Source: a virus. Taken from it: 20,835 nt of DNA. Under the pieces are notes generated by a model. It worked only from the letters and a program-made list of their open reading frames with translations. It had not been told where the DNA came from and did not search any database. Location of the stretch: positions 1 through 20,835 of the IMG/VR virus record IMGVR_UViG_3300023180_007447; one strand, written 5' to 3'. The position numbers and the translations under genes are program-made. Positions 494-19,736 of this stretch are shown here, piece after piece (positions within the stretch are counted from its first letter, which is position 1; each line of letters begins with the position of its first letter).

Positions 494-494
494 A

Positions 495-2735: not shown

Positions 2736-2764
2736 CTTGGCTGGTTTTCCTGTGTAGGATTTTA

Positions 2765-4771: not shown

Positions 4772-4772
4772 T

Positions 4773-5459: not shown

Positions 5460-5671
5460 GAGAGTTCAAGAAAAAATTTAGTGTTATCTCCACGGGTATT
5501 TTCGTAGATGGAACTATCACCATAAGTTTTATGGTCTTTGTATCCTACCATACGACCCTTCGTATTTTGAAGAGCAGGCATAAATGCAATAAGGAAGAAT
5601 ACTGCAGGTGCTCCAATCAAAAGAGCACCACCAATAACATAATAAGTAAGGAGTTCAGCAATGTCAGGCAT
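5456..5671 (-). CDS. Small membrane protein in the hli operon (71 aa)
   Basis: One long hydrophobic segment (YYVIGGALLIGAPAVFFLIAF, about 10-30) is followed by a 40-residue polar, Tyr/Asn/Asp-rich tail (YKDHKTYGDSSIYENTRGDN). Family not recognised. The size and layout recall the small single-helix subunits of photosystems or NDH complexes, but I cannot match it to any particular one. It precedes the thioredoxin-like gene with an ATGA overlap. Confidence 0.65.
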   Translation of the reverse strand: MPDIAELLTYYVIGGALLIGAPAVFFLIAFMPALQNTKGRMVGYKDHKTYGDSSIYENTRGDNTKFFLELS

Positions 5672-5685
5672 TAGATTTAAAATAA

Positions 5686-5979
5686 TTAAGAATGATGTGC
5701 TTTGAGTTCTGGATTGGGTTGAGATTTACTCAAGTCCCTACGAGTTTGATTTTTGATTACAATAAAAGCATCTTTGTTGATTTTGCGAGTACCAAGAGGT
5801 GATTGCCACTTCTTATTATACTCTTCACCAACATCAATACCTGATACTTGAGTTCCTGCCATTTCAACAGAAATCTCATCACCTTCTTCCCATCCAAACT
5901 TTTGAATGAGAGAAGCAACTTGTTCATACAAGGACGGAGATTCCATCACTCGATCTTCAGGTTCAAGTTTACCAATCAT
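5686..5979 (-). CDS. Unknown 97-aa protein of the hli operon
   Basis: This soluble acidic protein has a helical N-terminal region (SLYEQVASLIQKFGWEEGDE), followed by strand-like segments (ISVEMAGTQVSGIDV) and a basic end. No family recognised. Its ATG shares a base with the TAA stop of the 28-aa gene before it (TAATG), so it is coupled to that gene. Being in the hli operon suggests early expression. Confidence 0.6.
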   Translation of the reverse strand: MIGKLEPEDRVMESPSLYEQVASLIQKFGWEEGDEISVEMAGTQVSGIDVGEEYNKKWQSPLGTRKINKDAFIVIKNQTRRDLSKSQPNPELKAHHS

Positions 5980-6065
5980 TAGTAAGTCTCACAGAGTTTT
6001 TCTACAGAAAATCCTAGCAGAACAAAGAATAAAATGCTAGTAAGTGTAAAGATAGTTTCGGTCAT
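5979..6065 (-). CDS. 28-aa single-helix membrane peptide
   Basis: This 28-codon ORF (MTETIFTLTSILFFVLLGFS then VEKLCETY) starts in a TGATG overlap with hli and ends in a TAATG overlap with the next gene. It is therefore framed on both sides by the coupling pattern of this operon. It is a single transmembrane helix with a short polar tail, like the tiny subunits of photosystems and cytochrome b6f, but no specific match is recognised. Confidence 0.55.
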   Translation of the reverse strand: MTETIFTLTSILFFVLLGFSVEKLCETY

Positions 6066-6274
6066 CAGACAATGCCGAAGAACAGTTTACCAGTTGCTGC
6101 GTAAGAAATCAAGGCGGCAACAAATCCAAGCATAGCAGTACGACCATTCAGTTTTTCTGCTCTCTCAGCATATGGCTCATAACCATAACGCTCCATTGCT
6201 TCTTTGGTCATGTACATGGTGGGTTCTTTAGCAAACATATTCATTTGCCCGAACTCATTCTTTGTTACAGTCAT
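6065..6274 (-). CDS. hli: High-light-inducible protein (69 aa)
   Basis: The N-terminal half is variable and polar. The C-terminal half is the canonical Hli helix: AERAEKLNGRTAMLGFVAAL, then ISYAATGKLFFGIV. The chlorophyll-ligand motif ExxNGRxAMxGF is complete. I start at the ATG preceded by AGGAGG with a five-base spacer; the frame is open upstream but crosses a terminator and promoter. It heads an early operon of eight small coupled genes under a strong sigma70-type promoter. In cyanophages, Hli helps keep photosynthesis going during infection. Confidence 0.93.
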   Translation of the reverse strand: MTVTKNEFGQMNMFAKEPTMYMTKEAMERYGYEPYAERAEKLNGRTAMLGFVAALISYAATGKLFFGIV

Positions 6275-6302
6275 TGTTACCTCCTGTAATAATTCTTTAC
6301 AT

Positions 6303-6331
6303 AGTATATAGCAAAAAGGGGGTCTTGTCAA
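6303..6331 (-). promoter_or_regulatory. Early sigma70-type promoter of the hli operon
   Basis: A perfect TTGACA (6331-6326), a 17-bp spacer and TATACT (6308-6303) are present on the minus strand. The -35 box lies in the loop and 3' arm of a terminator hairpin, and the spacer contains its U-run. The expected start is near 6296, giving a leader of about 20 nt with AGGAGG before hli. Confidence 0.8.
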
Positions 6332-6338
6332 GTCCCCC
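6313..6338 (-). terminator. Intrinsic terminator overlapping the hli promoter
   Basis: On the minus strand GGGGG pairs with CCCCC. An A/A mismatch and an inner CTT/AAG pairing around GAC follow, and then TTTTT. It would end transcripts of the porin-like and 62-aa genes. Confidence 0.75.
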
Positions 6339-6353
6339 CCTGTCTCATTATTA

Positions 6354-6542
6354 TCAGTAATCACTTACATAACTGACACATATGTCTTGGTTCTTCTTAC
6401 AAAACTGACGAACATAAGAGTCAGTGTCTCGCTCCATAGTATGATGGGCGTGGTTATGTACCAACCCCACCACAATAAAAAATCCAACCAGTAACAAGTT
6501 AATCTGTGTTACTGGATGGAGGAATACCTTTAAGTATTTCAT
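6354..6542 (-). CDS. Unknown 62-aa single-helix membrane protein
   Basis: The basic N-terminus (MKYLKVFLHP) is followed by one transmembrane helix (INLLLVGFFIVVGLVHNHAH) and a polar tail with two cysteines (FCKKNQDIC). That topology would place the tail outside the cytoplasm if the N-terminus is inside, where the cysteines could pair. Family not recognised. It lies right behind a very stable tetraloop hairpin that separates it from the porin-like gene. Confidence 0.6.
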   Translation of the reverse strand: MKYLKVFLHPVTQINLLLVGFFIVVGLVHNHAHHTMERDTDSYVRQFCKKNQDICVSYVSDY

Positions 6543-6548
6543 GGTTTA

Positions 6549-6566
6549 AGGGGACCGAAGTCCCCT
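6549..6566 (-). terminator. C(UUCG)G hairpin between two genes
   Basis: The minus strand forms AGGGGAC-TTCG-GTCCCCT, a 7-bp perfect stem closed by the extra-stable C(UUCG)G loop. It lies just after the porin-like stop and just before the next ATG. It lacks a T-run (TTAAACC follows). It may therefore terminate weakly, protect the 3' end of the upstream mRNA, or shield the next start. Such CUUCGG hairpins are known from T4 intercistronic regions. Confidence 0.7.
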
Positions 6567-6574
6567 AGGAAGGA

Positions 6575-6946
6575 TCAGAAGCTGTACTTCACACCTGCCT
6601 TAGCACCATAACCACGGTCGATGTCGCTATCGCCGGAACCAACGAACGAGACTTCACCATAGAAACCGAGGGCATCGGTAGCAGCGAAACCAAGACCTGC
6701 CTTACCGGAAGGAACAGTGTCAGCATCACCACCGTCAGGAGTCACTAGGGTAGCACCACCTTGGACGTAGTAGGAGGTACGCTCGCCAAGAGCACCTTCG
6801 TAGCCAATGTGAAGATCGGTAGCAGCACCATTGTAGTCCGAACCAGTCCAACCAGCATTGGTTTCGACGTTAACATAGGGACCAGCAACAGCGGCACCAG
6901 CGAAAAGGGGAGCAGCAGCAAGGGCTGCGAAAGCGGATTTGATCAT
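6575..6946 (-). CDS. Secreted porin-like outer-membrane beta-barrel protein
   Basis: This is a 123-aa protein. A signal peptide of about 21 residues ends AGAAVAG or AVA. The mature part consists of alternating-polarity strands typical of small outer-membrane barrels (PYVNVETNAGW, TDLHIGYEG, TSYYVQGGATL, AGLGFAATDALGFYGEVSFV). It ends in an aromatic C-terminal strand, GAKAGVKYSF, whose terminal Phe is a usual barrel-assembly signal. It may insert in the host outer membrane late in infection or modify it; the function is unproven. GAGG lies nine bases before the ATG. It has two upstream promoters and a leader of up to about 150 nt, and is visibly more GC-rich than the glycan operon next to it. 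Confidence 0.75.
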   Translation of the reverse strand: MIKSAFAALAAAPLFAGAAVAGPYVNVETNAGWTGSDYNGAATDLHIGYEGALGERTSYYVQGGATLVTPDGGDADTVPSGKAGLGFAATDALGFYGEVSFVGSGDSDIDRGYGAKAGVKYSF

Positions 6947-7022
6947 TTGTTTAAACCTCGTAAATTTACTTGTGGAATTTCACCCACAGATGAAGGGGGA
7001 TTCGACGTTTCCCCGCGTGTGT

Positions 7023-7109: not shown

Positions 7110-7135
7110 ATAACAGAAGACTAGGGTCTTGTCAA
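7107..7135 (-). promoter_or_regulatory. Early sigma70-type promoter behind the glycan operon
   Basis: Perfect TTGACA (7135-7130), 17-bp spacer, TATTAT (7112-7107). The TGA inside TTGACA is the stop codon of the last glycan gene. The spacer contains a small AAGAC/GTCTT hairpin that could act as a weak terminator. The 13-mer CTTGACAAGACCC is shared with the hli promoter. Confidence 0.75.
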
Positions 7136-7845
7136 GCAGTTTCTTTCTTTTGGATTATGTATGCCCTACCATGCTCATCAAATCCATCAATGTCGATGTA
7201 ATGAGGTTCTCCAGTGAAGTTATCAACAGGAGATACGAGAAGATAAGGACCAGGAACTCTATCATCATTTGGATGATAAGTCCTCCAGTTTGTTGGATGG
7301 AAATGAATTGTAACTACTTTCTTTCCAGGATTTCTACAGGTATAACCAAGTTCCCTCATGTGATAAGTAATCTTATTATCACATCCAGGCTTACCCATTG
7401 TGTAATTCATTTTTTCAGAAACAGCAATCGGTGCCTTAAAAATCCAAGAGTCTTGTGATGCTGGATTCTCATAAGGTTCAATTTCCCAATTCTTTCCATC
7501 AGGACTAGAAATTTCCCAACGACTTAATGCATAGAAAGTTTTATCCATGTTGATACTCTTAAAGTATCTGAGAGTATCATCGAAGATAATATCTGCATTT
7601 GCAATCACACAAATTTCTCCCTTCAAGTTCTCATTACAAAACTTGAAAAGAGATTCATAAGTAGGTCTATCTTTACTTATTATCTTCTTAATTTTTGGTG
7701 ATTCAAAATTGAGTTCAGTATCTTCTTCCATAAAAAGATACACATTCTCAATTAAATCATTTCCGAGATTTTGATGAAGACAATACAAGTATTCACCGTT
7801 CCTCATGTGATTTGAGGAATTGAAATATTCTAATAGTAAATTCAT
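7132..7845 (-). CDS. Putative GT-A-type glycosyltransferase
   Basis: This 237-aa protein has no signal peptide. It carries the pattern of small GT-A enzymes: a strand ending in IANADIIFDD (about 80-89), where NAD takes the place of the metal-binding DxD, an acceptor-loop region with NPASQDSWIF, and GKPGCDNKITY, typical of phage and picocyanobacterial glycosyltransferases acting on glycan chains. It is the last gene of the 17-gene operon, one base after the cupin stop. The donor sugar cannot be predicted. Assignment is from motif resemblance only. Confidence 0.65.
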   Translation of the reverse strand: MNLLLEYFNSSNHMRNGEYLYCLHQNLGNDLIENVYLFMEEDTELNFESPKIKKIISKDRPTYESLFKFCNENLKGEICVIANADIIFDDTLRYFKSINMDKTFYALSRWEISSPDGKNWEIEPYENPASQDSWIFKAPIAVSEKMNYTMGKPGCDNKITYHMRELGYTCRNPGKKVVTIHFHPTNWRTYHPNDDRVPGPYLLVSPVDNFTGEPHYIDIDGFDEHGRAYIIQKKETA

Positions 7846-7846
7846 T

Positions 7847-8221
7847 TTAATTGCCCTTTATTATTCTACAAGAATCTTCTTCAAAATGTTGTGTAGAAAA
7901 TTCAAATAATTCAGTATCTTCCACTGCAAACATTTGATGGCGAAGTCCTATAGGAACTTCAAATTTATCTCCCTTATTTAAAAAGATATAGTTTGCATCT
8001 TCTAAAGAATCGCCAAAAGAGTAAAACAACTTTATAGATCCAGACTGAACATAAAAAGTTTCTCTTTTAATTTTATGATAGTGCCAAGAACATTTCATTC
8101 CTTTAACAATGAAAAGTATTTTTCCACAATAATCTTCATTGTTAACAATCCACTTTTCATATCCCCACCCTTTGGATACAAAATTATTCAAAGAAGTTTC
8201 TATCTGATATTCCTTTGTCAT
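7847..8221 (-). CDS. Cupin-domain protein, sugar-isomerase-like
   Basis: This 124-aa protein is a single beta-barrel cupin. The first cupin motif is exact, G41-(x5)-His47-x-His49-(x4)-Glu54-(x6)-Gly61, and the second contributes His95 (PIGLRHQMF). The barrel and the GWGYEKWIVN start resemble the small mannose-6-phosphate-isomerase-like cupins of polysaccharide clusters. It could isomerise or epimerise a sugar, or bind one. The 5' end overlaps the HAD phosphatase gene by 38 bases, an unusually long overlap that may couple their expression. Real substrate unknown. Confidence 0.75.
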   Translation of the reverse strand: MTKEYQIETSLNNFVSKGWGYEKWIVNNEDYCGKILFIVKGMKCSWHYHKIKRETFYVQSGSIKLFYSFGDSLEDANYIFLNKGDKFEVPIGLRHQMFAVEDTELFEFSTQHFEEDSCRIIKGN

Positions 8222-8504
8222 CTATAAAAAAATCTGCGTTTGGTTTTCCAAGTTGAAGTTCATGAAATTTACAATTCCATTCTTCCAATTGAATCAATGT
8301 AAAATTATACCACATTTTATTTGCTTTTAATAGATCACCATTACAGGTTCCCATACCTCTAGCAGTAAAATAGATTATATAATTTCCTTCATTATATAAT
8401 CTATTTACCACTTCTATCCTTCCTTCAATTGGAACTGCTTCTTCATACTTTCCCCATGTATTATCACAAATAGTTCCATCAATATCAAAACAATATCTTT
8501 TCAT
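8184..8504 (-). CDS. HAD-superfamily phosphatase (capsule-biosynthesis type)
   Basis: This is a 106-aa HAD protein. Motif I, FDIDGTICDN, has the nucleophile Asp7 and the acid/base Asp9. Motif II is the Thr of YFTARG. Motif III/IV is LGKPNADFFIDDKGISD, with the Lys and the Asp pair that hold magnesium. At this size it has no large cap, which fits small phosphatases of sugar-phosphates or other metabolites in LPS clusters. A likely job is dephosphorylating a sugar intermediate; in this operon a nonulosonate-9-phosphate is one possibility. It starts in an ATGA overlap with the glycosyltransferase gene before it. Confidence 0.8.
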   Translation of the reverse strand: MKRYCFDIDGTICDNTWGKYEEAVPIEGRIEVVNRLYNEGNYIIYFTARGMGTCNGDLLKANKMWYNFTLIQLEEWNCKFHELQLGKPNADFFIDDKGISDRNFFE

Positions 8505-9319
8505 GAATATTTTTCTATCAACATTTCAGTAAGTTTAAAAGATCCCATAGGAGAAGCATTTCTCTCATACCAACTTCTACATGCATTATGCATGTATTCC
8601 CACTCATTCTTAGAAACATTAGAAATTTTTTCTAATGCTTCTTCTGGAGTTTTTACTCCTATGTAATGAATTCCTTCAATCCATGGTTCATGGTAATTGT
8701 TTACATCACATCCACTAACTACAATCGGAACAGTTCCATGAGCCATACATTCAATGTCTCTGTTACACTTCGGACCATATCCAGGAAGAAGAAGTCCAAA
8801 TTTGGAAGATGCCAATCTATCTTGATATTCTTCCTGAGTATAAGGATAAGAATTAGGACCTCCTCCTTGAAGAGGCATTACAAATTCATCTATGCAGGTA
8901 GACCAATCATAGTTCAATCTACCTTTTGCTTGAATTTGATTTTCAACTTTCCCCATAAAAATAGAAAGAATAGATCTTTCATCATAAGAATTAATTCCCC
9001 TCTCAACACGTTCACATACTTTTCTAGGATGTCTAGAAAAAAATGTCCATGGATGAATCTGTGGATGATCTGGAACCGTATTGGCAAATAGACCAACTCT
9101 AAAAGGAGGTACTGGTCTATCATCAACTCTCGCTCTATCCCAAATCAAAAATTCTTTATTTTCATCTGCCCAGATATAATCACCTTCAATGTAAGAAAAT
9201 TCTACAAGATCAAGTTCTTTCCACATTGCCATCATCTCCCTACAATTATTTTCATAAGTAGGGTTTTCCGCATACCCAGGATATTCTGGTTTATAAATTT
9301 TTAATTTTGTCATTTTCAT
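8501..9319 (-). CDS. Exostosin-like glycosyltransferase
   Basis: This is a 272-aa protein. The C-terminal half matches the donor-binding part of exostosin-like (GT47-type) enzymes: YQDRLASSKFGLLLPGYGP, then RDIECMAHGTVPIVVSG, where a conserved glutamate binds the nucleotide sugar. The N-terminal half has a plausible acceptor domain with RVGLFANT. It has no membrane segment. The start could be codon 1 or Met3; neither has a good Shine-Dalgarno. It lies 17 bases after the methyltransferase gene. The linkage and donor cannot be read from sequence. Confidence 0.7.
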   Translation of the reverse strand: MKMTKLKIYKPEYPGYAENPTYENNCREMMAMWKELDLVEFSYIEGDYIWADENKEFLIWDRARVDDRPVPPFRVGLFANTVPDHPQIHPWTFFSRHPRKVCERVERGINSYDERSILSIFMGKVENQIQAKGRLNYDWSTCIDEFVMPLQGGGPNSYPYTQEEYQDRLASSKFGLLLPGYGPKCNRDIECMAHGTVPIVVSGCDVNNYHEPWIEGIHYIGVKTPEEALEKISNVSKNEWEYMHNACRSWYERNASPMGSFKLTEMLIEKYS

Positions 9320-9336
9320 AATATCAATAACTTAAA

Positions 9337-9951
9337 TCACTTATATGCATTTACACATAATTGCCCAGGTCTTTTATGTTTTTCCATATCAGTTAAGTCA
9401 GTTCTTTCAATTTTAGTAAATCCAACATGAGAAAGTAACCTATACAACATTTCATAATCATAAGCCATAATGTGAGAAAGATTTCCAATTTGCATTTTTT
9501 TACTTGAAGTAAATACTGGATTTTCTTGACACCTTTCCAAATTATGCGAAGTAACTATATTGGCAACAAACCAACCACCAATTCCCATTATCTGATAATG
9601 TGGAGGAGCACTACCCCATGCATTCTTACCCCCAAACTCATCACTTTGCCTATTCACATAAGCAACAGCACTTGCGTAAAGATCTGGACACACTGTCCTC
9701 AACTTTCCACCTGGTTTCAATTTATCATACATCTTTCTCAAAGTAGGGGCAATGACTAGAGCAGGTATATGTTCTATTGTGTGAGACCAATAAAACTCAT
9801 CAACAGAATTGTTTTCAAATGGTAGTTCTTGCTCAATAATATCAAATTGATTATCTCGTATTCCCAAAGTTGTCCATCCATCCATGGGATCACCAGTGCC
9901 TACAACACCAAATCGATCACCGCCGATTTCAACTTTTAATGCATCAGTCAT
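9337..9951 (-). CDS. SAM-dependent methyltransferase, type 11-like
   Basis: This 204-aa protein contains the post-I region of class I methyltransferases: LPFENNSVDEFYWSHTIEHI, then LRKMYDKLKPGGKLRTVCPD. The glycine-rich motif I is poor (VEIGGDRFGVVGTG), as in the predicted methyltransferases that accompany LPS and capsule genes. It could methylate a sugar of the phage-directed glycan. It lies four bases after NeuB-like and upstream of the exostosin-like gene. The degenerate SAM site leaves some doubt about activity. Confidence 0.7.
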   Translation of the reverse strand: MTDALKVEIGGDRFGVVGTGDPMDGWTTLGIRDNQFDIIEQELPFENNSVDEFYWSHTIEHIPALVIAPTLRKMYDKLKPGGKLRTVCPDLYASAVAYVNRQSDEFGGKNAWGSAPPHYQIMGIGGWFVANIVTSHNLERCQENPVFTSSKKMQIGNLSHIMAYDYEMLYRLLSHVGFTKIERTDLTDMEKHKRPGQLCVNAYK

Positions 9952-9955
9952 AAAA

Positions 9956-10780
9956 TCATTTCTTTCTTAGTTTATTTAGAATAGGAAGTTCACTGTCATA
10001 TACTCTCTTTACACCATCTCCCAACATTTTTTCCATGTTAAAAATTCCATTAACAAGTTTTTTGCTGTCTTGAATAGAAGCTGCTTGATCAGATCCATAC
10101 GCAGTTCTATCTTCCGTAATGTGGAATTCAATGCATTCTGCACCCAAAGCAACTGCACCAAAACTTGCCTCAAATCCACTATAGTGATTAGAAAATCCAA
10201 TTTTAAAATTAGAATACTTATCCTTAAGTGTTTGAATGTATCTAAGATTCAATTCATCAATTGCAGATGGATAAGTGCTAGTGCAAGCAAGAATGTATTC
10301 TAAATTTTTAGAAAGTATTCTCACAGAATTATCAACCTGATCTTCGGTAGACATTCCTGTGGAAAGAATGATTGGTTTTCCAGTATCTACCAAATCTTTC
10401 AAGAACTTTTCATCAGTAACAAGAGCAGAAGCAACCTTATGATAATCTACCTCAAGATTATCCTCAATCAATTGAATGCTTTTTCTATCCCAACAAGAAA
10501 CAATAAAATCCATTCCCAAATTTTTAGTGTAGGAATAAAGTTCTTTATATTGCTCAATAGAAAATTCTAATCCTTCTTTTTGCTCCCTATTCGTTGTTCC
10601 CCAAGGAGATTCTCTGTATCTATCAAGTTCTTCTTGAGAGTACACAGACTCAATGTCTCTTTTCTGAAATTTTACTGCATGGCACTTTGATTCAAATGCT
10701 TGGTCAATAAGACGTTTTGCATAAAACATGGAACCATTATGATTGATTCCTATTTCTGCAATTACATAAGTGTTGGTCAT
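9956..10780 (-). CDS. neuB: NeuB-type nonulosonic acid synthase lacking the SAF domain
   Basis: This is a 274-aa TIM-barrel enzyme of the sialic acid synthase family, which condenses phosphoenolpyruvate with a hexosamine to give a nine-carbon acid. Family motifs run in order: EIGINHNG (9-16), FQKRDI, STGMST, CTSTYPS, then SNHYSG and EFHIT, whose histidines match the two metal ligands. The usual length is about 350 because a C-terminal SAF (antifreeze-like) domain follows; here the protein stops right after the barrel. Substrate choice (Neu, Leg or Pse type) cannot be read. It lies three bases after a methyltransferase gene and two genes after the CMP-transferase. Confidence 0.88.
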   Translation of the reverse strand: MTNTYVIAEIGINHNGSMFYAKRLIDQAFESKCHAVKFQKRDIESVYSQEELDRYRESPWGTTNREQKEGLEFSIEQYKELYSYTKNLGMDFIVSCWDRKSIQLIEDNLEVDYHKVASALVTDEKFLKDLVDTGKPIILSTGMSTEDQVDNSVRILSKNLEYILACTSTYPSAIDELNLRYIQTLKDKYSNFKIGFSNHYSGFEASFGAVALGAECIEFHITEDRTAYGSDQAASIQDSKKLVNGIFNMEKMLGDGVKRVYDSELPILNKLRKK

Positions 10781-10783
10781 AAT

Positions 10784-11566
10784 TTATTTTACACAAAAAA
10801 TTGTCATTTTACTTCCATAAAATGGTGGACTATTATCTATCTCATTTTTATCCTTTAAAACTTTGAGTAAATTATCTTGGTTAAAATACTCCGTTTCAAA
10901 ATATGGAAACTCAGAATGTCTAATAGACAATCCAATATCTCTCACCATTCTTTTCAAACTATCCAAACTAAAAAGTGAAATGTGTGTCTGATCATGCAAA
11001 AATCTAAACTTATTCCCATATCTTCTAGCGATAGGAGAATCAAAATCTGGAGTTCCTATGATTAAAAGAGATCCTTTTCTCATCTTATCATAAACAGTTT
11101 TGATTGTAAAGAAGGGATCTTCCAAATGCTCTATTACATGATATAAAAGAATTACATTATAAAAATCAATATGATTATTGCTAATATAATTCTCAATGTT
11201 TGATTCTTCTCTTTTTATCTTATGGTTATTCATTCCATAAGAATCATAGTACCTACTAAGAACAACATCCACTCCAAGATAATTATCAACTCCATCTAAA
11301 CAAGATGCTGGTGAGTATCCACATCCCAAGTCTAAAAGATTAAACTTATCAACATTTAATATTTCAGTAATATTTTTAGAAAGATAATTTAGATTAGCAA
11401 TCCTTCTATTTCTTTCAATCTCACTCTCCATGTATCTTAGGACACCATCAGGATCTACCCTATTAGATTCAGAGTACAGTTCTTCAGACGTAACTTGAGT
11501 ATTTCTTTTTACAAAGTAATCATTTGTTAAATACAAATTTCTTATTTCCGAATTTAAATCAAACAT
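10784..11566 (-). CDS. SAM-dependent methyltransferase, 260 aa
   Basis: This is a class I methyltransferase with a complete motif I (NLLDLGCGYSPASCL, about 74-88), followed by DNYLGVDVVLS and the post-I segment NVILLYHVIEHLEDPFF. That is the Methyltransf_23/11 pattern seen in polysaccharide clusters. The first 70 residues form a helical extension. It lies between the NeuA-like and NeuB-like genes, so O- or N-methylation of the nonulosonic acid or of a neighbouring sugar is a possible role. The actual acceptor is unknown. Confidence 0.75.
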   Translation of the reverse strand: MFDLNSEIRNLYLTNDYFVKRNTQVTSEELYSESNRVDPDGVLRYMESEIERNRRIANLNYLSKNITEILNVDKFNLLDLGCGYSPASCLDGVDNYLGVDVVLSRYYDSYGMNNHKIKREESNIENYISNNHIDFYNVILLYHVIEHLEDPFFTIKTVYDKMRKGSLLIIGTPDFDSPIARRYGNKFRFLHDQTHISLFSLDSLKRMVRDIGLSIRHSEFPYFETEYFNQDNLLKVLKDKNEIDNSPPFYGSKMTIFCVK

Positions 11567-11575
11567 TTTAAAATA

Positions 11576-12259
11576 TTACAAAAGATAATTTTTCATAATT
11601 ATAGAACAAAGTTTTAAGTCTTCAAAAGTATCAACTTCAAAAGACTTCCATTCCTCCATTTCAACTACTCCAATTTTACCATACATTCTATTATTATACT
11701 TCCGTAAATTATCTGGTTTGAACATGTAGAATGATCCATTTTCAATGTATTGAGTCGAACTATCTTGCCTACGTTTCCTATTCTTCCAGTCATAACCAAT
11801 ACTACTCAAACCTTCAGATGTATCTTCCCATAAAGAACAATGAAATGTTTTGTGGGCAGAGAATAATGAATCATGATCTCCTTTTCTTGCGATAGAAATT
11901 GCATTCACTATGTCTGAAGATTCTCTTATTGGAGATGTTACCTGAGGAGCAAAAATCCAATCAGACTTTATGCCATTAGATTCCAAGTAATCAATCGAAT
12001 AAATCCAAGAACTCTCAGATGTTGTTGTGTCATTTGAAACTTCTGCTGTTCTTAGAATACTACCAACACCATATCCGCTTCCAATTTTTAAAATTTGTTC
12101 GGAATCTGAACTAACAAAAATTTGCTCCTTGTCAATTCCAGCATCAATACATTGCTCAATTGTCCAAGAAATTAAAGGTTTGCCACAAAAATCAATTCTA
12201 TTCTTATTTGGAATTCCTTTAGAACCACCTCTAGCCAAAATTATTGCAGATACATTCAT
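11576..12259 (-). CDS. neuA: NeuA-type CMP-nonulosonic acid cytidylyltransferase
   Basis: This 227-aa protein activates sialic-type acids as CMP sugars. The CTP-binding P-loop AIILARGGSKGIPNKN (5-20) is diagnostic for CMP-sugar synthetases. QVTSPIR (about 109-115) and the magnesium-binding FEVDTFEDL near the C-terminus complete the pattern. Length is normal for the family (about 225-230). KDO cytidylyltransferase (KdsB) is a related alternative, but the GGSKGIPNKN form and the nearby NeuB-like gene favour sialic, legionaminic or pseudaminic acid. It starts two bases after... the end of the GT29-like gene. Confidence 0.9.
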   Translation of the reverse strand: MNVSAIILARGGSKGIPNKNRIDFCGKPLISWTIEQCIDAGIDKEQIFVSSDSEQILKIGSGYGVGSILRTAEVSNDTTTSESSWIYSIDYLESNGIKSDWIFAPQVTSPIRESSDIVNAISIARKGDHDSLFSAHKTFHCSLWEDTSEGLSSIGYDWKNRKRRQDSSTQYIENGSFYMFKPDNLRKYNNRMYGKIGVVEMEEWKSFEVDTFEDLKLCSIIMKNYLL

Positions 12260-12261
12260 AA

Positions 12262-12999
12262 TTAAATTCTCAACAATTCAATAATTTCTTTATCTAAAAT
12301 GATTGTGTCTTGATTTGAAACAAAAAGATTGCGAATAAAACTTATTTGTTTCAAAGCAGCGTGTCTACCGTGTCCACCATCAATTCCAAATTTTCTTCCC
12401 CCATAATCAATTTTATCCATATGTCCTTCACAATATAAATCTTGGTATGTATTTCCTTCTAAGTAAAAAGTAAATCCAGAAATTTTTAAAGATCTTATCG
12501 AATAATTCATCAATAAACAAATACTAGCAATTCCTGTATTAAATTCCACTCCAATTGCCGAGTAAAGTTTTCTATAATTTTCTTTTCCTATCCAATAAAA
12601 TGGCAAATCATATTGATTTATACTATCAAAATTTTTTGGTATTGGACTAATGTAATTGTCAGAAAAAATGTTATCTCCGTGCGTACCCCTAATAGCAGTT
12701 CCAACCACCATCTTTAAATTTTTGAAGTGTTCTACATGATCATCTAAAGAAATTCTTCTTTTAATTCCTGGCATCCAGGGAGTTCCAAAATTGCAAGTGT
12801 AGATGTCAGTTTTACTTCCATAATCTTTACGAAGAGATCTTATAGGTATCAAAGAATTTGGTCTAACAATAACGTCTGCAGAATCAAACTCATCTCCTCT
12901 TTCTTTACCTTGAAGATAAGGAGCTGGACCAATTAAAACAACATCTTTACCATCCAATAAATTCTCCAATCTTTCGTCAGTGTCCAATTCAATTTTCAC
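12262..12999 (-). CDS. Sialyltransferase-like protein of the GT29 type
   Basis: This 245-aa protein resembles eukaryote-type sialyltransferases. The L-sialylmotif is recognisable near the N-terminus: VVLIGPAPYLQG, then DSADVIVRPN and KDYGSKTDIYT (CMP-donor binding). The S-motif is NTGIASICLLMNYSIRSL followed by KISGF. The region GHGRHAALKQISFI fits the VS motif with its essential histidine. It lacks the membrane anchor of animal enzymes. With NeuA and NeuB-like genes directly behind it, it is the obvious transferase for the CMP-acid. It starts at GTG (12999-12997) with AGGAG six bases upstream; the GTGA overlaps the preceding stop. Confidence 0.72.
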   Translation of the reverse strand: MKIELDTDERLENLLDGKDVVLIGPAPYLQGKERGDEFDSADVIVRPNSLIPIRSLRKDYGSKTDIYTCNFGTPWMPGIKRRISLDDHVEHFKNLKMVVGTAIRGTHGDNIFSDNYISPIPKNFDSINQYDLPFYWIGKENYRKLYSAIGVEFNTGIASICLLMNYSIRSLKISGFTFYLEGNTYQDLYCEGHMDKIDYGGRKFGIDGGHGRHAALKQISFIRNLFVSNQDTIILDKEIIELLRI

Positions 13000-13700
13000 A
13001 TGTATCTCCTTTCTTGTGGATTTGGCATACCCTCAGACATAACATCTCCATTAGGTCTAACTCTATGAAATTCTATAAAAAAAGTTTTAATTTTTTTTGT
13101 TCCGAGATGCTTATCAAGATGCAATCTAGTATTAGTCTCTGCATGTACAAAACCAGAAATAGATTGATACTCCCTCACATGATTACTCATTTGAGAATAA
13201 ATTGTCATGTATTCTTGATTAGAAACAGCAAATCGATCATGATAACCATTTAACCAATGATGCCAATTAGGCAACCACAATTTATTCATATCTAAAGATT
13301 CTATAGATTTATTTACAGGTTCACTATAAATTACATCTTCTCTAGACATAATAACTCTATCATACTTTTTACCAAAACTGTTCATGAATTCACAAACTAA
13401 TGTCTTAGATTTAAACATTCTTAGTGTAGACTGAACAGTACAGAGTCTATCAGGTCCAGTTATAGATGGATGAAGAACAATTCCTTCTTCATCTATGTCG
13501 TCTTCTTCTTGAACTTTTACCTGACATCCATCAATTTCTTTAAATAGTGTTTCAGCAAGAGAAGATGTTTTACTCTTACCAAGTAAAACATAAACATCTC
13601 TATCTTCCCAACAATCAATTAAATTTGTTTTTAAATTTTCAAAAGTATGTTCAATAGATCTACCAATTCCTGGTATACAAATAGCAGTTTTCATAATCAT
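12996..13700 (-). CDS. Glycosyltransferase-like protein of unknown specificity
   Basis: This 234-aa protein starts with a Rossmann-like strand (TAICIPGIGRSIEHTFENL), then DVYVLLGKS. It has YDRVIMSREDVIY at about 112-124, where RED could replace a DxD. NGYHDRFAVSNQEYM and FHRVRPNGD follow. This pattern is seen in uncharacterised glycosyltransferase-like proteins of picocyanobacteria and algal viruses. No named family is certain. It overlaps its predecessor by ATGA (Met3 is an alternative start) and directly precedes the sialyltransferase-like gene. Confidence 0.55.
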   Translation of the reverse strand: MIMKTAICIPGIGRSIEHTFENLKTNLIDCWEDRDVYVLLGKSKTSSLAETLFKEIDGCQVKVQEEDDIDEEGIVLHPSITGPDRLCTVQSTLRMFKSKTLVCEFMNSFGKKYDRVIMSREDVIYSEPVNKSIESLDMNKLWLPNWHHWLNGYHDRFAVSNQEYMTIYSQMSNHVREYQSISGFVHAETNTRLHLDKHLGTKKIKTFFIEFHRVRPNGDVMSEGMPNPQERRYM

Positions 13701-14554
13701 TCTTCAAAGTAATTGTTCTTCATTTCCGAAAATACTTTCTCTATCCCATCTTCAAGAGAAACTTTTGGTTCCCACCATTTTTTTATAAATGGATCTGGTT
13801 TATTTTTTGCATCTTTTTGAACAGAGTCTTTGCAATTTACTGGATTTATTTGCACATTATCTATGTTATTTTTTTTAAATTCAGTTTCAATTATTTTTGC
13901 CAGATCTTTAATTGATGTGGACTGAAACGATGTAATATGTAAAGGATCATCGGATTTAATATTCTCATATTGATTCATTATTATTTCAAAGGCGTCACAG
14001 CAATCACTAACGTATAAAAATTCCCTTTCTTCTTCACCATCCGTTAGCATGTTAAAGTTTTTTTCTTCAAATCCTTTACGAATAAAATCATTTATAACAT
14101 GCATTTTTTCGGGATCTTTTTCTATGCCATAAACATTCCATATCTTAGTTACTCTCCCACCAAGTGCTTGAGTATAAAGTTCTCCCATTCTCTTAGAAAC
14201 ACCATAGGATGAATAAGACATATTACTCATCTGAGACGATGCAAAAATAAATCTCTTATTATACTTTTTCAAAATATTAAATACATTTACCATCATTGAT
14301 GTATTGTTATTAATAAACTCAAAAGTATCTTGGTATTTCTTTAAGTACTGTGATCCACCAAGATCATACGCAAGGAAAAAAACAAAGTCCGATTTTTTTA
14401 TTTGCTCATCTACATACAAATTATCACTCTTCCTAAGGTCATTTTCTGATCCATCAAGCAAATCAATCCCACAAACTTCATGGCCCTTTTCTATTAAGTG
14501 CTTTGTAAGAGGTTCTCCAATTTGACCTCTTGATCCCAAAACTACGATTTTCAT
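13697..14554 (-). CDS. NAD-dependent sugar epimerase/dehydratase (extended SDR)
   Basis: This is a 285-aa Rossmann protein. The nucleotide site is VVLGSRGQIGEPL (GxxGxxG at 7-13). An acidic residue for NAD ribose is in GIDLLDG, and the catalytic pair is in YGVSKRMGE (YxxxK). The first catalytic Ser is in the ASSQMS stretch. Late segments (EREFLYVSDCCDA and WWEPKVSLEDGIEKVF) are typical of nucleotide-sugar epimerases. The substrate could be a GDP-deoxysugar made by the genes upstream, for example as the second enzyme after the ColD-like dehydratase; this is inference. It overlaps both neighbours by ATGA. Confidence 0.8.
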   Translation of the reverse strand: MKIVVLGSRGQIGEPLTKHLIEKGHEVCGIDLLDGSENDLRKSDNLYVDEQIKKSDFVFFLAYDLGGSQYLKKYQDTFEFINNNTSMMVNVFNILKKYNKRFIFASSQMSNMSYSSYGVSKRMGELYTQALGGRVTKIWNVYGIEKDPEKMHVINDFIRKGFEEKNFNMLTDGEEEREFLYVSDCCDAFEIIMNQYENIKSDDPLHITSFQSTSIKDLAKIIETEFKKNNIDNVQINPVNCKDSVQKDAKNKPDPFIKKWWEPKVSLEDGIEKVFSEMKNNYFEE

Positions 14555-15426
14555 TTATAAACCTCAGTTATTTTTTCTTCTGGGTATTCTGTCATTTTTT
14601 TTGGATCATACTTCCACTCACCCATCTTATAGTAATCATCAAACTCAAATAAATGCAAATTTACTGATGGATTAAAGATTTTAAATTCATCCCCACCATT
14701 AAAAAAACTTGGGTAGTAAATATCTGAACAGTTTTTGTTTATATATGAAGATGTTAAACTAAAAGTAGATACTCCACCCACTACAATTTTTTCTGAGTGT
14801 GATAAGATATAAACATCTTCTGGTAATGACTTAATTCTATAGTCTATAGAAATACCTTGATCAATGCAATAATTTACAATCTTATCATAACATGGATTCA
14901 TATTAGAATTTTGATAACCAAATCCAGTACAAAGGATTACTTTCTTTGGTTGTTCTTTTTCTATAATCTTTTTAAAGTAAGACCAAGGTGATTGAACGTA
15001 AGCTGGATGTGGATTAGTTGTTGTTGCGTCACCAGATCTAAAGTGTATAGAAAGAGTATCCTTTAAATCTAAATCATTAAATTGATTGAAGTTAAATGAT
15101 TTATCAAGCAGATCATAAATTTCATTCTTATATGTAGAGATAATATTCTTATTTAAAAATTGTTTATAATTTTCAAGATCAACATAGTCCAAAATTGAAT
15201 TGTAGTAATTATGAGTTCCCCATGTTAAAGAGGAAATACTTTCAACTTCAAAATTAAATTCATTCTCAATTTCTATTTCAGAATCTATTTTAAAAAAATT
15301 ATTTTTTGGAGATCTTATTACAGTTCTCTCTTTGCAACATTTTGCATAAAAAATAGCGCCTGCTAATTGCATCAGATTATTTCCAAATAATCCATACCAA
15401 TGATCAATGTTAATGTAATTTTTCAT
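14551..15426 (-). CDS. Fucosyltransferase-like protein (GT11 type)
   Basis: This is a 291-aa protein. The start has YGLFGNNLMQLAGAIFYAKC, matching the GGLGNQMFQYA opening of alpha-1,2-fucosyltransferases. The GDP-fucose motif HxRxGD appears as IHFRSGD (127-133). The C-terminal motif appears as DVYILSHSEKIVVGGVSTFS, comparable to the NSTFSWW loop. Together with a complete GDP-fucose route (gmd, fcl) in the same operon, fucose or a related GDP-sugar is the likely donor. Sequence divergence from bacterial GT11 is high, so donor and linkage are uncertain. Confidence 0.7.
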   Translation of the reverse strand: MKNYINIDHWYGLFGNNLMQLAGAIFYAKCCKERTVIRSPKNNFFKIDSEIEIENEFNFEVESISSLTWGTHNYYNSILDYVDLENYKQFLNKNIISTYKNEIYDLLDKSFNFNQFNDLDLKDTLSIHFRSGDATTTNPHPAYVQSPWSYFKKIIEKEQPKKVILCTGFGYQNSNMNPCYDKIVNYCIDQGISIDYRIKSLPEDVYILSHSEKIVVGGVSTFSLTSSYINKNCSDIYYPSFFNGGDEFKIFNPSVNLHLFEFDDYYKMGEWKYDPKKMTEYPEEKITEVYK

Positions 15427-15427
15427 T

Positions 15428-16306
15428 TTACTTCAACATTTCACTAATAGTTTCTTTAAGAGAATTTATATCCGTAAAGTAATCAAAAACAAATTCAGAA
15501 TTAATGTCTAGCATGTAAGGAAAAGAATCAGTAACTTTTTCACCAAAAGATAAAAACTTTTTGTCTGAACTGTTTATGTTTTCTTTAGTTACTGCAAAAC
15601 AAAAAGGTCCAGAATTTCTACCAACAATCAAATTGCAAAACTTAGAGATGTAAGATATTTCGTTCAAGTCACAAGTATTAGAATTAATTATATCATCAGT
15701 AAATTTTATATTTGGAATAGAAGTTTTAAATTTTTTAGTCAAAATAAAAACTTTGTCTTGATGCAATTGTGCCAAAGGTTCTATAATTTCAGACATGTCA
15801 GAATTATATCTAGTTTGTCCAGAAAGAGAGGGTCCATTACAAATCAAAACCTTATCATTGGTATTATCAGAAATAAATTTATCAATAGAATCACAATCAA
15901 ATTTAGAATAGTCTATAGATGGAAAATATTCATTCACATTCCTTATTTTCAAATTCGAATTAAAAATAGTATTTATTTTATTATAAATGATTGAAAACAT
16001 TCTATGAAATCCTCTAAGAGAACATTCCATATTATACTCATTATCAGGTGAAAAGTATCCACCAATCCACGTATTCACATACAAACAATTTTCAGTATCA
16101 ATAAATTTAGTATAATGTTTTCCTGCCAGTAAAGGAACACTAGAAATATTTAAATACTCAACATCAAGATCATGCGTTAGTAAAGAACTATTCCCATGTG
16201 CAACATAATATTTTGTTTTTAATTGAGAAGAAATGTCGATCAAAAATTCTTTTATGTGATAAATATCACCATTATGAAAATGGCAGAAAAAACATATTGA
16301 TTTCAT
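15428..16306 (-). CDS. Putative glycosyltransferase, GT-B-like
   Basis: This 292-aa protein has an N-terminal segment SICFFCHFHNGDIYHIKEFL, like the start of heptosyltransferase-type GT-B enzymes. The middle of the chain has LICNGPSLSGQ and the C-terminal half FCNLIVGRNSGPFCFAV, a typical sugar-nucleotide loop. It is AT-rich, with many Asn, Lys and Ile, and no membrane segment. It lies four bases after the DUF4254-like gene and one base before the fucosyltransferase-like gene. Family assignment is tentative; it may be a divergent GT9 relative. Confidence 0.5.
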   Translation of the reverse strand: MKSICFFCHFHNGDIYHIKEFLIDISSQLKTKYYVAHGNSSLLTHDLDVEYLNISSVPLLAGKHYTKFIDTENCLYVNTWIGGYFSPDNEYNMECSLRGFHRMFSIIYNKINTIFNSNLKIRNVNEYFPSIDYSKFDCDSIDKFISDNTNDKVLICNGPSLSGQTRYNSDMSEIIEPLAQLHQDKVFILTKKFKTSIPNIKFTDDIINSNTCDLNEISYISKFCNLIVGRNSGPFCFAVTKENINSSDKKFLSFGEKVTDSFPYMLDINSEFVFDYFTDINSLKETISEMLK

Positions 16307-16309
16307 TTA

Positions 16310-16651
16310 TCAAACACCCTTATATAATTTTACAGAATCTTCTCTAAGTCCTTTACTTTGTGCAATAGCATCATCAACTAAAAGATTAATTGCTTGAACA
16401 AGTTTTGGTCTCTTAGACTTAAAACAAATATCAATTTTTCTTTTTAGATTTGCAATTTCTTCATCAGTTTCAGCTTCTTGAATTGCATCTTCTAGCATCC
16501 AAGTTCTGATATGAAGAATTGACAACTTCTCTACAATTTCCCCAAGATTGTCAGTAGCAATATATTCTACTTCGGGGACTTTATTTTCAGACAAAACTTT
16601 ATTTACCGTTTGAAAAATAATTTCTTCAATGGTTTCTCCAAGATTTTTCAT
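16310..16651 (-). CDS. DUF4254-like helical protein
   Basis: This is a 113-aa all-helical protein. The segment LHIRTWMLEDAIQEAETDEE, then IANLKRKIDICFKSKRPKLV, follows the spacing of the DUF4254 family (LhxxnfxLWhxED, then KRxIDxlNqxRNxxIExID). Members of that family lie in LPS and glycosyltransferase clusters without a known reaction. Here the usual Asn-Arg-Asn residues are changed (FKSKRPK). It overlaps the preceding PLP-enzyme gene by ATGA. It may be a chaperone or partner of one of the glycosyltransferases, but this is a guess. Confidence 0.55.
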   Translation of the reverse strand: MKNLGETIEEIIFQTVNKVLSENKVPEVEYIATDNLGEIVEKLSILHIRTWMLEDAIQEAETDEEIANLKRKIDICFKSKRPKLVQAINLLVDDAIAQSKGLREDSVKLYKGV

Positions 16652-17814
16652 TTCAATTCCTCAATGACTTTTTTAATTAGATTAATTTCTTTATTTGTAA
16701 TAAATTGATTGTTACCTATATATACACAATTCTCGTGCAAAATATCTACATTCAAATTTTTACCTGCACATTCAACTTGATATCCTTTCATGTATGGTTG
16801 TTTGAGTAAATTTCCTCCGACGACAGGACGATATTCTATACCATAATTATCAAATAGTTTTAGCAGTTTAAACTTAGTGTCTTTATTTTTGCACAAAAAT
16901 GGAAAACAAAAAGAACTATTTCCTTCTTTAAATTGTATTTTATAAAAACATTCGTTAGAGTTATGAAGTTCTACAAATTTCTTGTAGTATTTTTTACGAA
17001 CATCAATAAAAGAATCTAATCTTTTGAGTTGTCTAATTCCCAAGACTGCATTCAGTTCAGTATTTCTAAAGTTATACCCATCACTAACAAATAAAAATGT
17101 TTTTTCAATTTCAGGATTTTTGGAGGCATACTCATCAAACTTATTTGAAGCTCTAGCAAGCCCATGTGTTCGCTTCATTTTCATAAGATCATAAAGATCA
17201 CTATCATTAGTAGAAACCATCCCTCCTTCAATAGTGGACATATGATGCCCAAAATAAAAACTGAATGTAGACCCTAAACTATCAGAACCTACTTTACTTC
17301 CATCAAAGTTTGTGCATCCATGAGATTCACAAACATCATCTATAAAAATAGCATTTGGAAAATACTTCTTATAAGAATCAACATTTGCTGGTATGCCCAA
17401 AAGATGCGTCACAAAAACCATCTTAATATCTGGATGCTTTTCTGAGATTCTTTTTAGATTATCCAAATCAAAACTATAATCTTCAAAAGTAATATCACAA
17501 AAAATAGGAGTTAATCCAAGTTGAAAAATAGGATTAATGTTAGTAACCCAAGTACAGGATGGTAAAAGAACTTTATCTCCTTTCTTTAGATTGTACTTAT
17601 CAATAACTGCAGATACTAATAAAAAATTTGCAGTACTTCCGGAAGTCACAAATAAAGAATGCTTACATCCTAACCATTTTGACCATTCACTTTCAAACTC
17701 TTCAACCTTTTTTCCCTGAGTAAATTTATCTGAGGTAAGGATAAATTTAGCAAGATTTACCCTATCTAGAAAAGATAGTGTATTCTTCATCAATGGCCAA
17801 TTATAATTTTTCAT
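16648..17814 (-). CDS. PLP-dependent sugar 3-dehydratase, ColD-like (DegT/DnrJ fold)
   Basis: This 388-aa fold-type I PLP protein has TSGSTANFL (phosphate loop), DDVCESHG (Asp binding the pyridine N) and the loop SFYFGHHMSTIEGG. In sugar aminotransferases of this family the loop carries the catalytic Lys; here that position is His (His190 with this start). This is the hallmark of GDP-4-keto-6-deoxymannose 3-dehydratase (ColD) and the related E1 enzymes. Length equals that of E. coli ColD from memory, and its substrate is exactly the product of Gmd encoded upstream. I start at the ATG 17814 because AGGAG lies five bases before it; the frame is open ten codons further. It overlaps the fcl 3' end by 14 bases. 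Confidence 0.82.
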   Translation of the reverse strand: MKNYNWPLMKNTLSFLDRVNLAKFILTSDKFTQGKKVEEFESEWSKWLGCKHSLFVTSGSTANFLLVSAVIDKYNLKKGDKVLLPSCTWVTNINPIFQLGLTPIFCDITFEDYSFDLDNLKRISEKHPDIKMVFVTHLLGIPANVDSYKKYFPNAIFIDDVCESHGCTNFDGSKVGSDSLGSTFSFYFGHHMSTIEGGMVSTNDSDLYDLMKMKRTHGLARASNKFDEYASKNPEIEKTFLFVSDGYNFRNTELNAVLGIRQLKRLDSFIDVRKKYYKKFVELHNSNECFYKIQFKEGNSSFCFPFLCKNKDTKFKLLKLFDNYGIEYRPVVGGNLLKQPYMKGYQVECAGKNLNVDILHENCVYIGNNQFITNKEINLIKKVIEELK

Positions 17815-18745
17815 ATGTACTCCTATTCTTAAGAAACCAATCAATAGTAATTTTTAATCCCTCTTCCAAAGATGTTTTTGGTTTCCAACCAAGTGCATCC
17901 ATTTTAGAAGTATCTAATGCCCTACGAGGTGTGCCATTTGGTTTTGACGTGTCCCAAGTAATTTTTCCAGTATATCCAATAATATCAGCAACTATTTCAG
18001 AAAGTTCTTTAATACTTACTTCCCTGTGAGGACCAATGTTAATAATCTCTGGATTGTCATATGTATTCATTAAGAAAATAAGTGCTTCTGCTAGATCATC
18101 AGAAAAAATAAATTCTCTAGTTGGAGAACCATCTCCATAGCAAACTACTTCCTGAAGTCCATTTTCTTTTGCATTTAAAAATTTATTAATAAAACTGGGA
18201 AGAACATGACATTGCTCAACATTAAAGTTATCATTAATACCATACAAATTATTAGGCATTACTGAAATAGTAGACATTCCATATTGCTCTGTGTATTTTT
18301 TACACATAACATGTCCAGCAAGTTTTGCTAAAGAATATCCTATGTTAGTTTCTTCAAGTTGTCCCGTCATAAGATATTCTTCTTTGATAGGAACTGGTGC
18401 AAGTTTAGGATAAATGCAGGCAGATCCTAAAAATAAAAGTTTTTTGCATCCATACTTATAAGAAAAATCAATTATATTAGTTTGAATGTTTAAATTATCT
18501 CTAATAAAATCTGCTGGATAGTTTTTATTGTGCCCAATACCACCTACTTTTGCTGCTGCTAGAAAAACATATTCTGGTTGGTTTAGATTAAAAAACCTTT
18601 CAACATCATATTGTTTTCTCAAATCAAAATGAGATCTCGGAGATGAAACAATATTATGATATCCTTGAGATTTTAAATTTCTAACAATAGCAGATCCTAC
18701 TAATCCAGTATTTCCAGCAACGTAAATTTTACTATCAAAGTTCAT
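17801..18745 (-). CDS. fcl: GDP-L-fucose synthase (GDP-4-keto-6-deoxymannose epimerase/reductase)
   Basis: This is a 314-aa extended SDR. The NADP site is [13 protein letters not shown]. The catalytic Ser and Cys are in LGSACIYP, the YxxxK pair in YSLAKLAG, and the epimerase histidine in EQCHVLPSF. These match E. coli Fcl (WcaG) residues Ser107, Cys109, Tyr136/Lys140 and His179. The product is GDP-L-fucose. In the presence of a ColD-like enzyme a ColC-like role is an alternative. I choose ATG 18745, ten bases after AAGGAG, rather than the GTG two codons earlier. It overlaps the end of gmd and the start of the ColD-like gene. Confidence 0.9.
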
Positions 18746-19736
18746 TTTCACACATCTCCTTTACCAAATCATCAAATGAAATTTCTGGTTTCCAACCTAG
18801 TTCATTCCTTGCTTTTGTAGAATCTCCCAATAGAGTTTCTACTTCCGCAGGACGATAGTATTTAGGATTGACTGCAATGATTGTTTTTTTGGTATTCTTA
18901 TCCATACCAATTTCATCTTCACCTTGACCATACCATTCAATGTCAAATCCAAAGTATGGTGCTGCTTTCTCAACAAACTCACGAACTGAATACTGTTCAC
19001 CAGTAGCAATCACATAATCTTCTGGGGAATCTTGCTGGAGCATCATCCACATTCCTCTTACAAAATCTTTTGCATGTCCCCAATCTCTTTTTGCATTTAA
19101 ATTGCCAAGATAAAGAACATTTTGTTTTCCTTCAGAAATTGCTTTAAGACCTATCGTAATCTTACGAGTTACAAATGTTTCACCACGACGAGAAGATTCA
19201 TGGTTGAAGAGAATACCTGTGCAAGCATACATTCCATATGCTTCACGATAATTCTTAGTAATCCAATATCCATAAATTTTAGCACATCCATAAGGAGAAC
19301 GTGGATAGAAAGGTGTAGTTTCTTTCTGAGGAATTTCTTGAACAAGACCAAACAGTTCAGAAGTTGATGCTTGGTAGATACGAACCTTTTCTTCCATGCC
19401 CAACAAACGGACTGCCTCAAGCACCCTCAGGGTGCCTAGAGCATCAACCTGTCCAGTATATTCGGGAATTTCGAAAGAAACTTTCACATGACTCTGAGCA
19501 CCAAGATTATAAATCTCATCTGGTTGAACTTGCTGAATAACTCTCACAAGACTTGTAGAGTCAGTCAGATCTCCATAGTGAAGATTAATTTGTTCATAAA
19601 TGTGATCAATGCGATGAGTATTAATCAATGAGGCACGGCGAACAATACCATGAACTTCATAACCTTTTTCAAGGAGAAGTTCTGCAAGGTATGAACCATC
19701 TTGTCCCGTAATACCAGTAATTAGAGCAACTTTCAT
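18735..19736 (-). CDS. gmd: GDP-mannose 4,6-dehydratase
   Basis: This 333-aa enzyme makes GDP-4-keto-6-deoxy-D-mannose from GDP-mannose, the shared precursor of fucose, colitose, perosamine and rhamnose. NADP site [24 protein letters not shown] loop, catalytic STSELFG and YGCAK, and the signature [18 protein letters not shown] are complete. It is slightly shorter than E. coli Gmd (373). It is first in the glycan operon, directly behind a strong early promoter with a leader of about 15 nt and no clear Shine-Dalgarno. Its base composition is less AT-rich than that of the genes after it. Confidence 0.95.

Follow-up and report, generated by a model that had tools for sequence, protein, structure and literature searches.

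A surface-sugar gene cluster in a marine cyanophage contig

The window, by which we mean the whole stretch of DNA analyzed here, is a 20,835-base IMG/VR record that comes from a marine cyanobacterial phage and represents a 20.8-kb fragment of a cyanomyovirus-like genome. Positions 1-7000 encode a high-light-inducible protein, a thioredoxin and several proteins that match cyanophage families in a PHROGs search, and this part of the window matches 245 cyanophage records by megablast. From 7132 to 19736 there follow 17 minus-strand genes with sugar functions that make up one surface-sugar cluster (G+C content of 25-39% versus 38-45% in the flank). Hydropathy analysis finds no membrane segment in any of the 17 encoded proteins, all of which are soluble. 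A second viral contig (L002) shares the region with 99.99% identity over 14,054 bases. The locus is thus a multi-gene run of sugar and glycosyltransferase genes within a cyanophage genome, as is typical of cyanophage LPS/glycan clusters.

Four consecutive genes are the focus of this study (Table 1). A first-pass annotation had singled them out as a sialic-type acid module, and a check of open reading frames and Pfam matches confirmed that they are adjacent, that their order and coordinates are correct and that all lie on the minus strand.

Table 1. Features of the surface-sugar cluster and of the GT29-family protein.
Feature	Position	Strand	Details
HAD phosphatase, capsule-biosynthesis (EcbF/BcbF) type	8184..8504	-	TIGR01689 E=6e-11, below cut-off
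Exostosin/GT47-like glycosyltransferase	8501..9319	-	PF03016 E=3e-6, below cut-off
Second SAM-dependent methyltransferase	9337..9951	-	PF08241 E=9e-5
NeuB-type synthase without C-terminal SAF domain	9956..10780	-	274 aa; PF03102 E=3e-62
SAM-dependent methyltransferase	10784..11566	-	260 aa; PF13489 E=4e-16
NeuA/PseF-type CMP-nonulosonate cytidylyltransferase	11576..12259	-	227 aa; PF02348 E=1e-17
GT29-family CMP-acid sugar transferase	12262..12999	-	245 aa, GTG start, soluble; PF00777 E=1.3e-4, AlphaFold, Foldseek
VS-equivalent segment H210-G-R-H213-A-A-L-K-Q218	12346..12372	-	alignments A2 and A6
Sialylmotif S region, residues 150-179	12463..12552	-	alignment A2 with bacterial GT29
Sialylmotif L, residues 18-70	12790..12948	-	G24, D39, D42, R46, N48, D59-Y60-G61-S62-x-T64-D65
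DUF7796-like protein, neighbor of GT29 gene	12996..13700	-	PF25072 E=1.6e-4, below cut-off
NAD-dependent epimerase/dehydratase, close upstream of GT29 gene	13697..14554	-	PF01370
ColD-type PLP dehydratase, His for catalytic Lys	16648..17844	-	PDB 2gms ColD E=1.5e-61
Fcl/ColC-like GDP-sugar epimerase-reductase	17801..18751	-	NF047922 405 bits, below cut-off of 500
GDP-mannose 4,6-dehydratase Gmd	18735..19736	-	TIGR01472 560 bits, above cut-off of 415

Beyond these four genes, the combination of Gmd with ColD-type and Fcl/ColC-like enzymes suggests that the cluster makes a GDP-colitose-like or related deoxy sugar. Homologs of the epimerase/dehydratase upstream of the GT29 gene (44-81% identical) adjoin GT29 in five other loci (L003, L004, L005, L035 and L062), and the DUF7796-like neighbor is kept in the same five. 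The gene at 14551-15426 was suspected by eye to encode a GT11 enzyme, a candidate that we rejected as it has no Pfam support.

The transferase is predicted to adopt a GT29 fold

The first-pass annotation had assigned the 12262-12999 product to GT29 and proposed a profile search and a comparison of the predicted structure with human sialyltransferases as checks. The profile search falls just short for the window protein itself, which PF00777 (GT29) scores at 21.9 bits, through the L motif only, against a Pfam cut-off of 23 bits (1.1 bits short). Its relatives nevertheless pass: all four close viral homologs match PF00777 (best E=3e-7), and the phage relatives L062 (34.4 bits), L064 (30.9 bits) and L068 (36.1 bits) lie above the cut-off. 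Searches of PHROGs and NCBIfam returned no family for the window protein.

An AlphaFold model of the transferase, built from a 12-sequence alignment (pLDDT 83, pTM 0.84), has the GT-A variant fold of sialyltransferases. Foldseek comparison of this model with the PDB places GT29 structures at ranks 1-21 (probability 1.0, TM about 0.55), led by human ST8SiaIII (E=4.8e-8) and followed by the GT42 enzymes CstII and CstI. A model of a different protein, predicted with the same confidence, served as a control and showed no GT29-like matches, so we consider the match to GT29 structures specific. Profile comparison with all PDB sequences gives a concordant picture, with a phage-only profile (A6) retrieving eight distinct GT29 sequences first (E=6.6e-5) and then GT42. 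A second profile (A2) reaches E=1.5e-11 to GT29 structures but includes bacterial GT29 sequences, so the phage-only value is the fair figure. The assignment to the GT29 family and fold is thus supported, with three relatives above the Pfam cut-off and no different fold ahead of the sialyltransferases.

Claims about individual sialylmotifs fared less evenly. The L motif is clear: it aligns with those of ST8SiaIII, ST6Gal1 and ST3Gal1, and its key residues are invariant in eight phage sequences. The S motif (FNTG...ISGFTFY) is present by alignment with bacterial GT29 proteins; PF00777 does not score it separately. The VS motif, on the other hand, is degenerate. Human GT29 enzymes have an H-x4-E consensus in which the His is the catalytic base (PMC8433944), whereas the window protein reads H213-x4-Q218, with Gln in place of Glu and a second His at position 210, and fails the strict consensus. 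For this reason, we refer to it as GT29-fold or GT29-related and not as a canonical GT29. H-x4-Q also occurs in the distant phage relatives L009 and L011 and in L013, and bacterial GT29 members have H-x4-E. In five close phage relatives, H213 is replaced by Asn, Arg or Met and H210 is kept; L035 has a single VS-segment His, aligned to H213. The segment thereby retains a His in 8/8 phage sequences. Profile alignment matches the VS-segment His of the window transferase to the VS His of ST3Gal1, and it is probably the catalytic histidine. At the place of sialylmotif III, for which the consensus is (H/Y)-Y-(Y/W/F)-(D/E) (PMC8433944), the window protein has G-H193-M-D, and H, F or Y occurs there in relatives. 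A low-confidence stretch of the model (residues 182-209) directly precedes the VS segment; instability of this region is also described for ST6Gal1 (PMC8433944).

Two alternative views of this protein bear on its fold and its activity. That it is a degenerate or non-catalytic relative, retained for nucleotide-sugar binding only, would fit the replaced VS Glu and the variable His position; the GT29-like gene (dN/dS ~0.21), like NeuB (0.08), is nonetheless under purifying selection, and the invariance of key L-motif residues together with the universal VS-segment His makes a loss of catalysis very unlikely. The least probable alternative is a GT42 or MptE-like kinase fold. CstII (GT42, E=6.6e-5) and an MptE-type HPPK structure (1.5e-4) do appear lower in the fold search, but the sequence profiles and the best 21 structures are all GT29, GT42 ranks below them and the L motif contains a GT29-like DYGSKTD block.

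The closest relatives of the transferase are in phages and bacteria

The transferase had initially been described as eukaryote-like, a description that our comparisons do not bear out. By sequence comparison, its nearest relatives are found in other phages and in bacteria. In phmmer searches, it scores 72 bits against L013, encoded on a contig filed under a Flavobacteriaceae MAG, and, on a common scale, 50 bits against the bacterial GT29 L014 and 33-38 bits against others (including L016/L017), versus 16.8 bits against human ST8SiaIII. PF00777 is found in 7 of 386 genomes of the phylum to which the L014 genome belongs. Hydropathy analysis of the window transferase identifies no hydrophobic segment that could serve as a type II membrane anchor, its alignment contains no Cys at the place of the eukaryotic L-motif Cys, and its VS motif departs from the human one as described above. 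Bacterial GT29 enzymes have been reported before: Petit et al., 2018 describe 23 bacterial sequences without the membrane anchor and disulfide cysteines and infer a bacterial origin for GT29, with eukaryotic members derived from bacteria (PMC5811610).

Phage GT29 genes are linked to CMP-acid synthesis

We compared viral loci of at least 10 kb that were fetched by the GT29 profile alone (n=29) with control viral loci around relatives of the window's Gmd gene (n=61). A CMP-acid cytidylyltransferase of NeuA or SpsF type is encoded in 26/29 GT29 loci versus 4/61 controls (Fisher P=3e-15), and the four control loci with a cytidylyltransferase are exactly the four with a GT29-like gene. Grouping at 80% identity leaves the pattern in place (19 of 22 GT29 groups contain a cytidylyltransferase). 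The coupling of the transferase to a CMP-acid pathway, suggested from the window's gene order, is therefore borne out by the computed linkage.

NeuB is found in 9/29 GT29 loci and in 0/61 control loci. Among close GT29 relatives, it is present wherever the contig extends far enough; in the four close relatives without it (37% identity or more), the contig stops 0.2-3.7 kb past the GT29 gene. For distant phage GT29 relatives (25-30% identity), NeuB is missing from the entire record. Records of outer relatives encode a KdsA-type synthase in two cases and an HpaI-type aldolase in four, so the phage GT29 family, taken as a whole, is not specific to nine-carbon acids. The safest statement is that phage GT29 enzymes use CMP-activated 3-deoxy-ulosonic acids, which in the clade of the window protein would be sialic-type acids.

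We also considered whether NeuB loci carry four alternative transferase families, represented by clusters 28 (GT29), 7 (MptE/CST-I-like), 21 and 29. These never co-occur in 50 NeuB loci (permutation P<1e-4). We give this exclusivity little weight because equal exclusivity is seen in 248 of 20,475 arbitrary four-cluster sets, lineage structure accounts for part of it and the cluster 29/21 model (pLDDT 85) has no significant structural match to sialyltransferases.

Donor synthesis involves a NeuB clade without the SAF domain

The best-scoring models for the window NeuB are those of N-acetylneuraminate synthases (NeuB_NnaB E=5e-66), and it matches PDB 6ncs, a 290-residue protein named sialic acid synthetase, at 2e-31. 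Its catalytic barrel is present, and both metal-binding His residues align to SiaC. No PF08666 match to a SAF domain was found in the window or in 13 larger viral records, and viral NeuB homologs are mostly 271-282 aa long. This SAF-less clade spans ~50 marine viral contigs (close relatives of the window NeuB occur on at least 49 of viral origin), and only 3/50,697 phage records are matched by the window protein.

The accompanying cytidylyltransferase has the conserved ARGGSKGIPNKN and QxTSP motifs of PF02348 enzymes. It matches the PseF model TIGR03584 (E=1e-29, below the equivalog cut-off), and its PDB matches are CMP-Neu5Ac synthetases (best 6e-28).

It had been pointed out that no NeuC-type UDP-GlcNAc 2-epimerase is present and that the hexosamine precursor would have to come from the host. 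The former is true for the 20.8-kb window and extends to 26/27 related viral records searched, the exception being L060, where neuB, neuA, a weakly GT29-like gene and neuC lie within 4 kb. The latter does not follow in unchanged form, as most related loci have aminotransferase, SDR and TIM-barrel isomerase genes beside NeuB. These common partners suggest that the acceptor sugar of the viral NeuB differs from NeuC-made ManNAc. With NeuC absent from 26 of the 27 records, the genes do not fix the exact acid.

A proposed make-activate-transfer pathway

Taken together, the cyanophage cluster probably holds a set of enzymes that make, activate and transfer one acidic sugar. In the proposed pathway, NeuB would condense PEP with a sugar of six carbons, probably an amino-deoxy sugar, and so form a 3-deoxy-ulosonic acid of nine carbons. 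The NeuA/PseF-type enzyme would convert the acid to its CMP form, and the soluble GT29-fold enzyme would add it to a growing glycan with inversion, presumably using the VS-segment His as base. The methyltransferase encoded between NeuA and NeuB may modify the acid. On the glycan, the acid would most likely form a charged cap, alongside the GDP-derived deoxy sugar from Gmd, ColD and Fcl/ColC. Family, fold, gene linkage and purifying selection are computed results, whereas catalysis, the acid's identity, its methylation and the acceptor are inferred.

Several observations weigh against a make-activate-transfer set. In the enzymes, the VS Glu is a Gln, H213 is variable and NeuB lacks the SAF domain of characterized synthases. 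As to the locus, it is without NeuC, and no flippase, polymerase or initiating transferase gene is found within the window.

The nature of the donor and the target of transfer both admit other readings. The donor could be another CMP-activated 3-deoxy acid (Kdo-like or eight-carbon), with the SAF-less NeuB using a different sugar. The missing SAF domain, in the clade and in the 13 whole viral records, and the KdsA-type and HpaI-type genes in outer-relative records would be in keeping with this. The window NeuB is nonetheless best matched by N-acetylneuraminate synthase models and by 6ncs, which is of similar length, and the window NeuA matches PseF and CMP-Neu5Ac synthetases. A donor of another kind is therefore rather unlikely. 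Considerably more plausible, though short of an even chance, is that these enzymes modify phage structural proteins within the cytosol and so place the acid on the particle. The enzymes have no membrane segments, genes of lipid-carrier, flippase or ligase type are absent from the window, and glycosylation of mycobacteriophage virions is documented, according to a citation in PMC12691614 (Freeman 2023). Yet host lipid-carrier enzymes could serve, and similarly composed cyanophage clusters are regarded as modifiers of the host O-antigen (PMC7824862). On this analysis, we lean weakly toward the host envelope as the glycan target, with virion proteins a close second.

Relationship to known systems

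Elements of the module are already known, namely cyanophage glycan clusters, published bacterial GT29 sequences and a phage GT29 database entry (BFVD A0A6J5NLG3, "Glycosyl transferase family 29 [uncultured Caudovirales phage]"). This entry has a virus-encoded GT29 fold in common with the window transferase, as do the GT29 proteins of herpesviruses, poxviruses and mimiviruses. With CAZy GT29 (ST8SiaIII, ST6Gal1, ST3Gal1) and bacterial GT29, the window transferase shares the GT-A variant fold, L and S motifs, a VS-region His and coupling to CMP-acids; compared to CAZy GT29, it is phage-encoded, lacks the membrane anchor and L-motif Cys and has H-x4-Q. The GT42 enzymes CstI and CstII have a related fold that is a weaker structural and profile match than GT29, and they also occur with NeuB/NeuA genes. 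Bacterial neuBAC operons likewise place NeuB and NeuA beside a sialyltransferase-type gene, and L060 resembles them further in its UDP-GlcNAc 2-epimerase, whereas the window has no NeuC and its NeuB no SAF domain. The long SDR/cupin/HAD/methyltransferase/glycosyltransferase run of the cluster resembles the P-SSM2-type LPS/capsule clusters of cyanomyoviruses (PMC7824862), to which the window adds NeuB, a CMP-acid synthetase and GT29. In searches of an open-access library, we found no report of a phage NeuB-NeuA-GT29 module, phage GT29, cyanophage sialic acid or a SAF-less viral NeuB clade.

We tentatively suggest that the SAF-less NeuB clade, a sugar made by the phage aminotransferase/SDR/isomerase enzymes in place of NeuC-made ManNAc, the CMP-synthetase and a phage/bacterial GT29 branch from a prokaryotic pool ancestral to animal sialyltransferases could together constitute an undescribed marine-phage ulosonic-acid pathway. 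Because GT29 and CMP-acid synthesis are tightly linked over a large number of viral contigs, the nature of the donor can be tested directly, and the module would offer small soluble enzymes that are readily expressed and assayed. Phages would join the prokaryotic side of the GT29 family, which bears on the origin of animal sialyltransferases. If the proposed pathway is correct, viruses of cyanobacteria would be able, while infecting, to add a charged sugar of the sialic type to cells or particles, and phage competition, grazing and adsorption would change as a result.

GDP-sugar genes and base composition of the window

Taken together, the Gmd, Fcl/ColC-like and ColD-like genes of the window suggest that the phage encodes a pathway for GDP-colitose, a 3,6-dideoxy sugar. 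G+C content is 25-39% in the sugar cluster versus 38-45% in the cyanophage flank, and this lower value indicates that the cluster is probably a horizontally exchanged cassette.

Coordinates of features in the window and in related loci
Feature	Locus	Positions
Sugar cluster	window	7132-19736
Gmd, Fcl/ColC-like and ColD-like genes	window	16648-19736
MptE-like protein	L077	1143-1880
Cluster 21/29 proteins	L033	11139-11813
	L069	12110-12778
Clusters with two NeuB-type genes	L064	6615-8819
	L068	8001-14309
Sialic acid operon layout	L060	4058-7864
Fused GT29 proteins	L009	6891-8843
	L010	6891-8843

Possible transferases and synthases in other NeuB loci

MptE-like proteins are encoded in 18 of the 50 viral NeuB loci (L077 and 17 others). 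Their profile matched GT42 structures, and they co-occur with the GT29-like gene in none of the 50 loci. The MptE-like protein is possibly an alternative transferase. Other NeuB loci (L033, L069 and relatives) encode members of two related protein families, clusters 21 and 29; comparison of a confident model for these families with PDB structures gave no significant match.

Two loci, L064 and L068, each contain two NeuB-type genes. The second shares only ~28% identity with the window NeuB, and phages of this type perhaps make two acids each. On the viral contig L060, genes for a UDP-GlcNAc 2-epimerase, neuA, neuB and a weakly GT29-like protein all lie inside 4 kb, a virus-borne full sialic acid operon layout.

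Distant and fused GT29 relatives

L013, a GT29-carrying contig assigned to a Flavobacteriaceae MAG, is densely packed with genes in one direction, as are the phage loci, and may represent phage DNA that was binned wrongly. Proteins of L009 and L010 have ~360 extra N-terminal residues fused to the GT29 domain. The records of six outer phage GT29 relatives contain no NeuB; instead, a DAHP/KdsA-type synthase (L100, L103) or an HpaI-type aldolase (L099, L105, L107, L112) is present, and these relatives may thus transfer other 3-deoxy acids.
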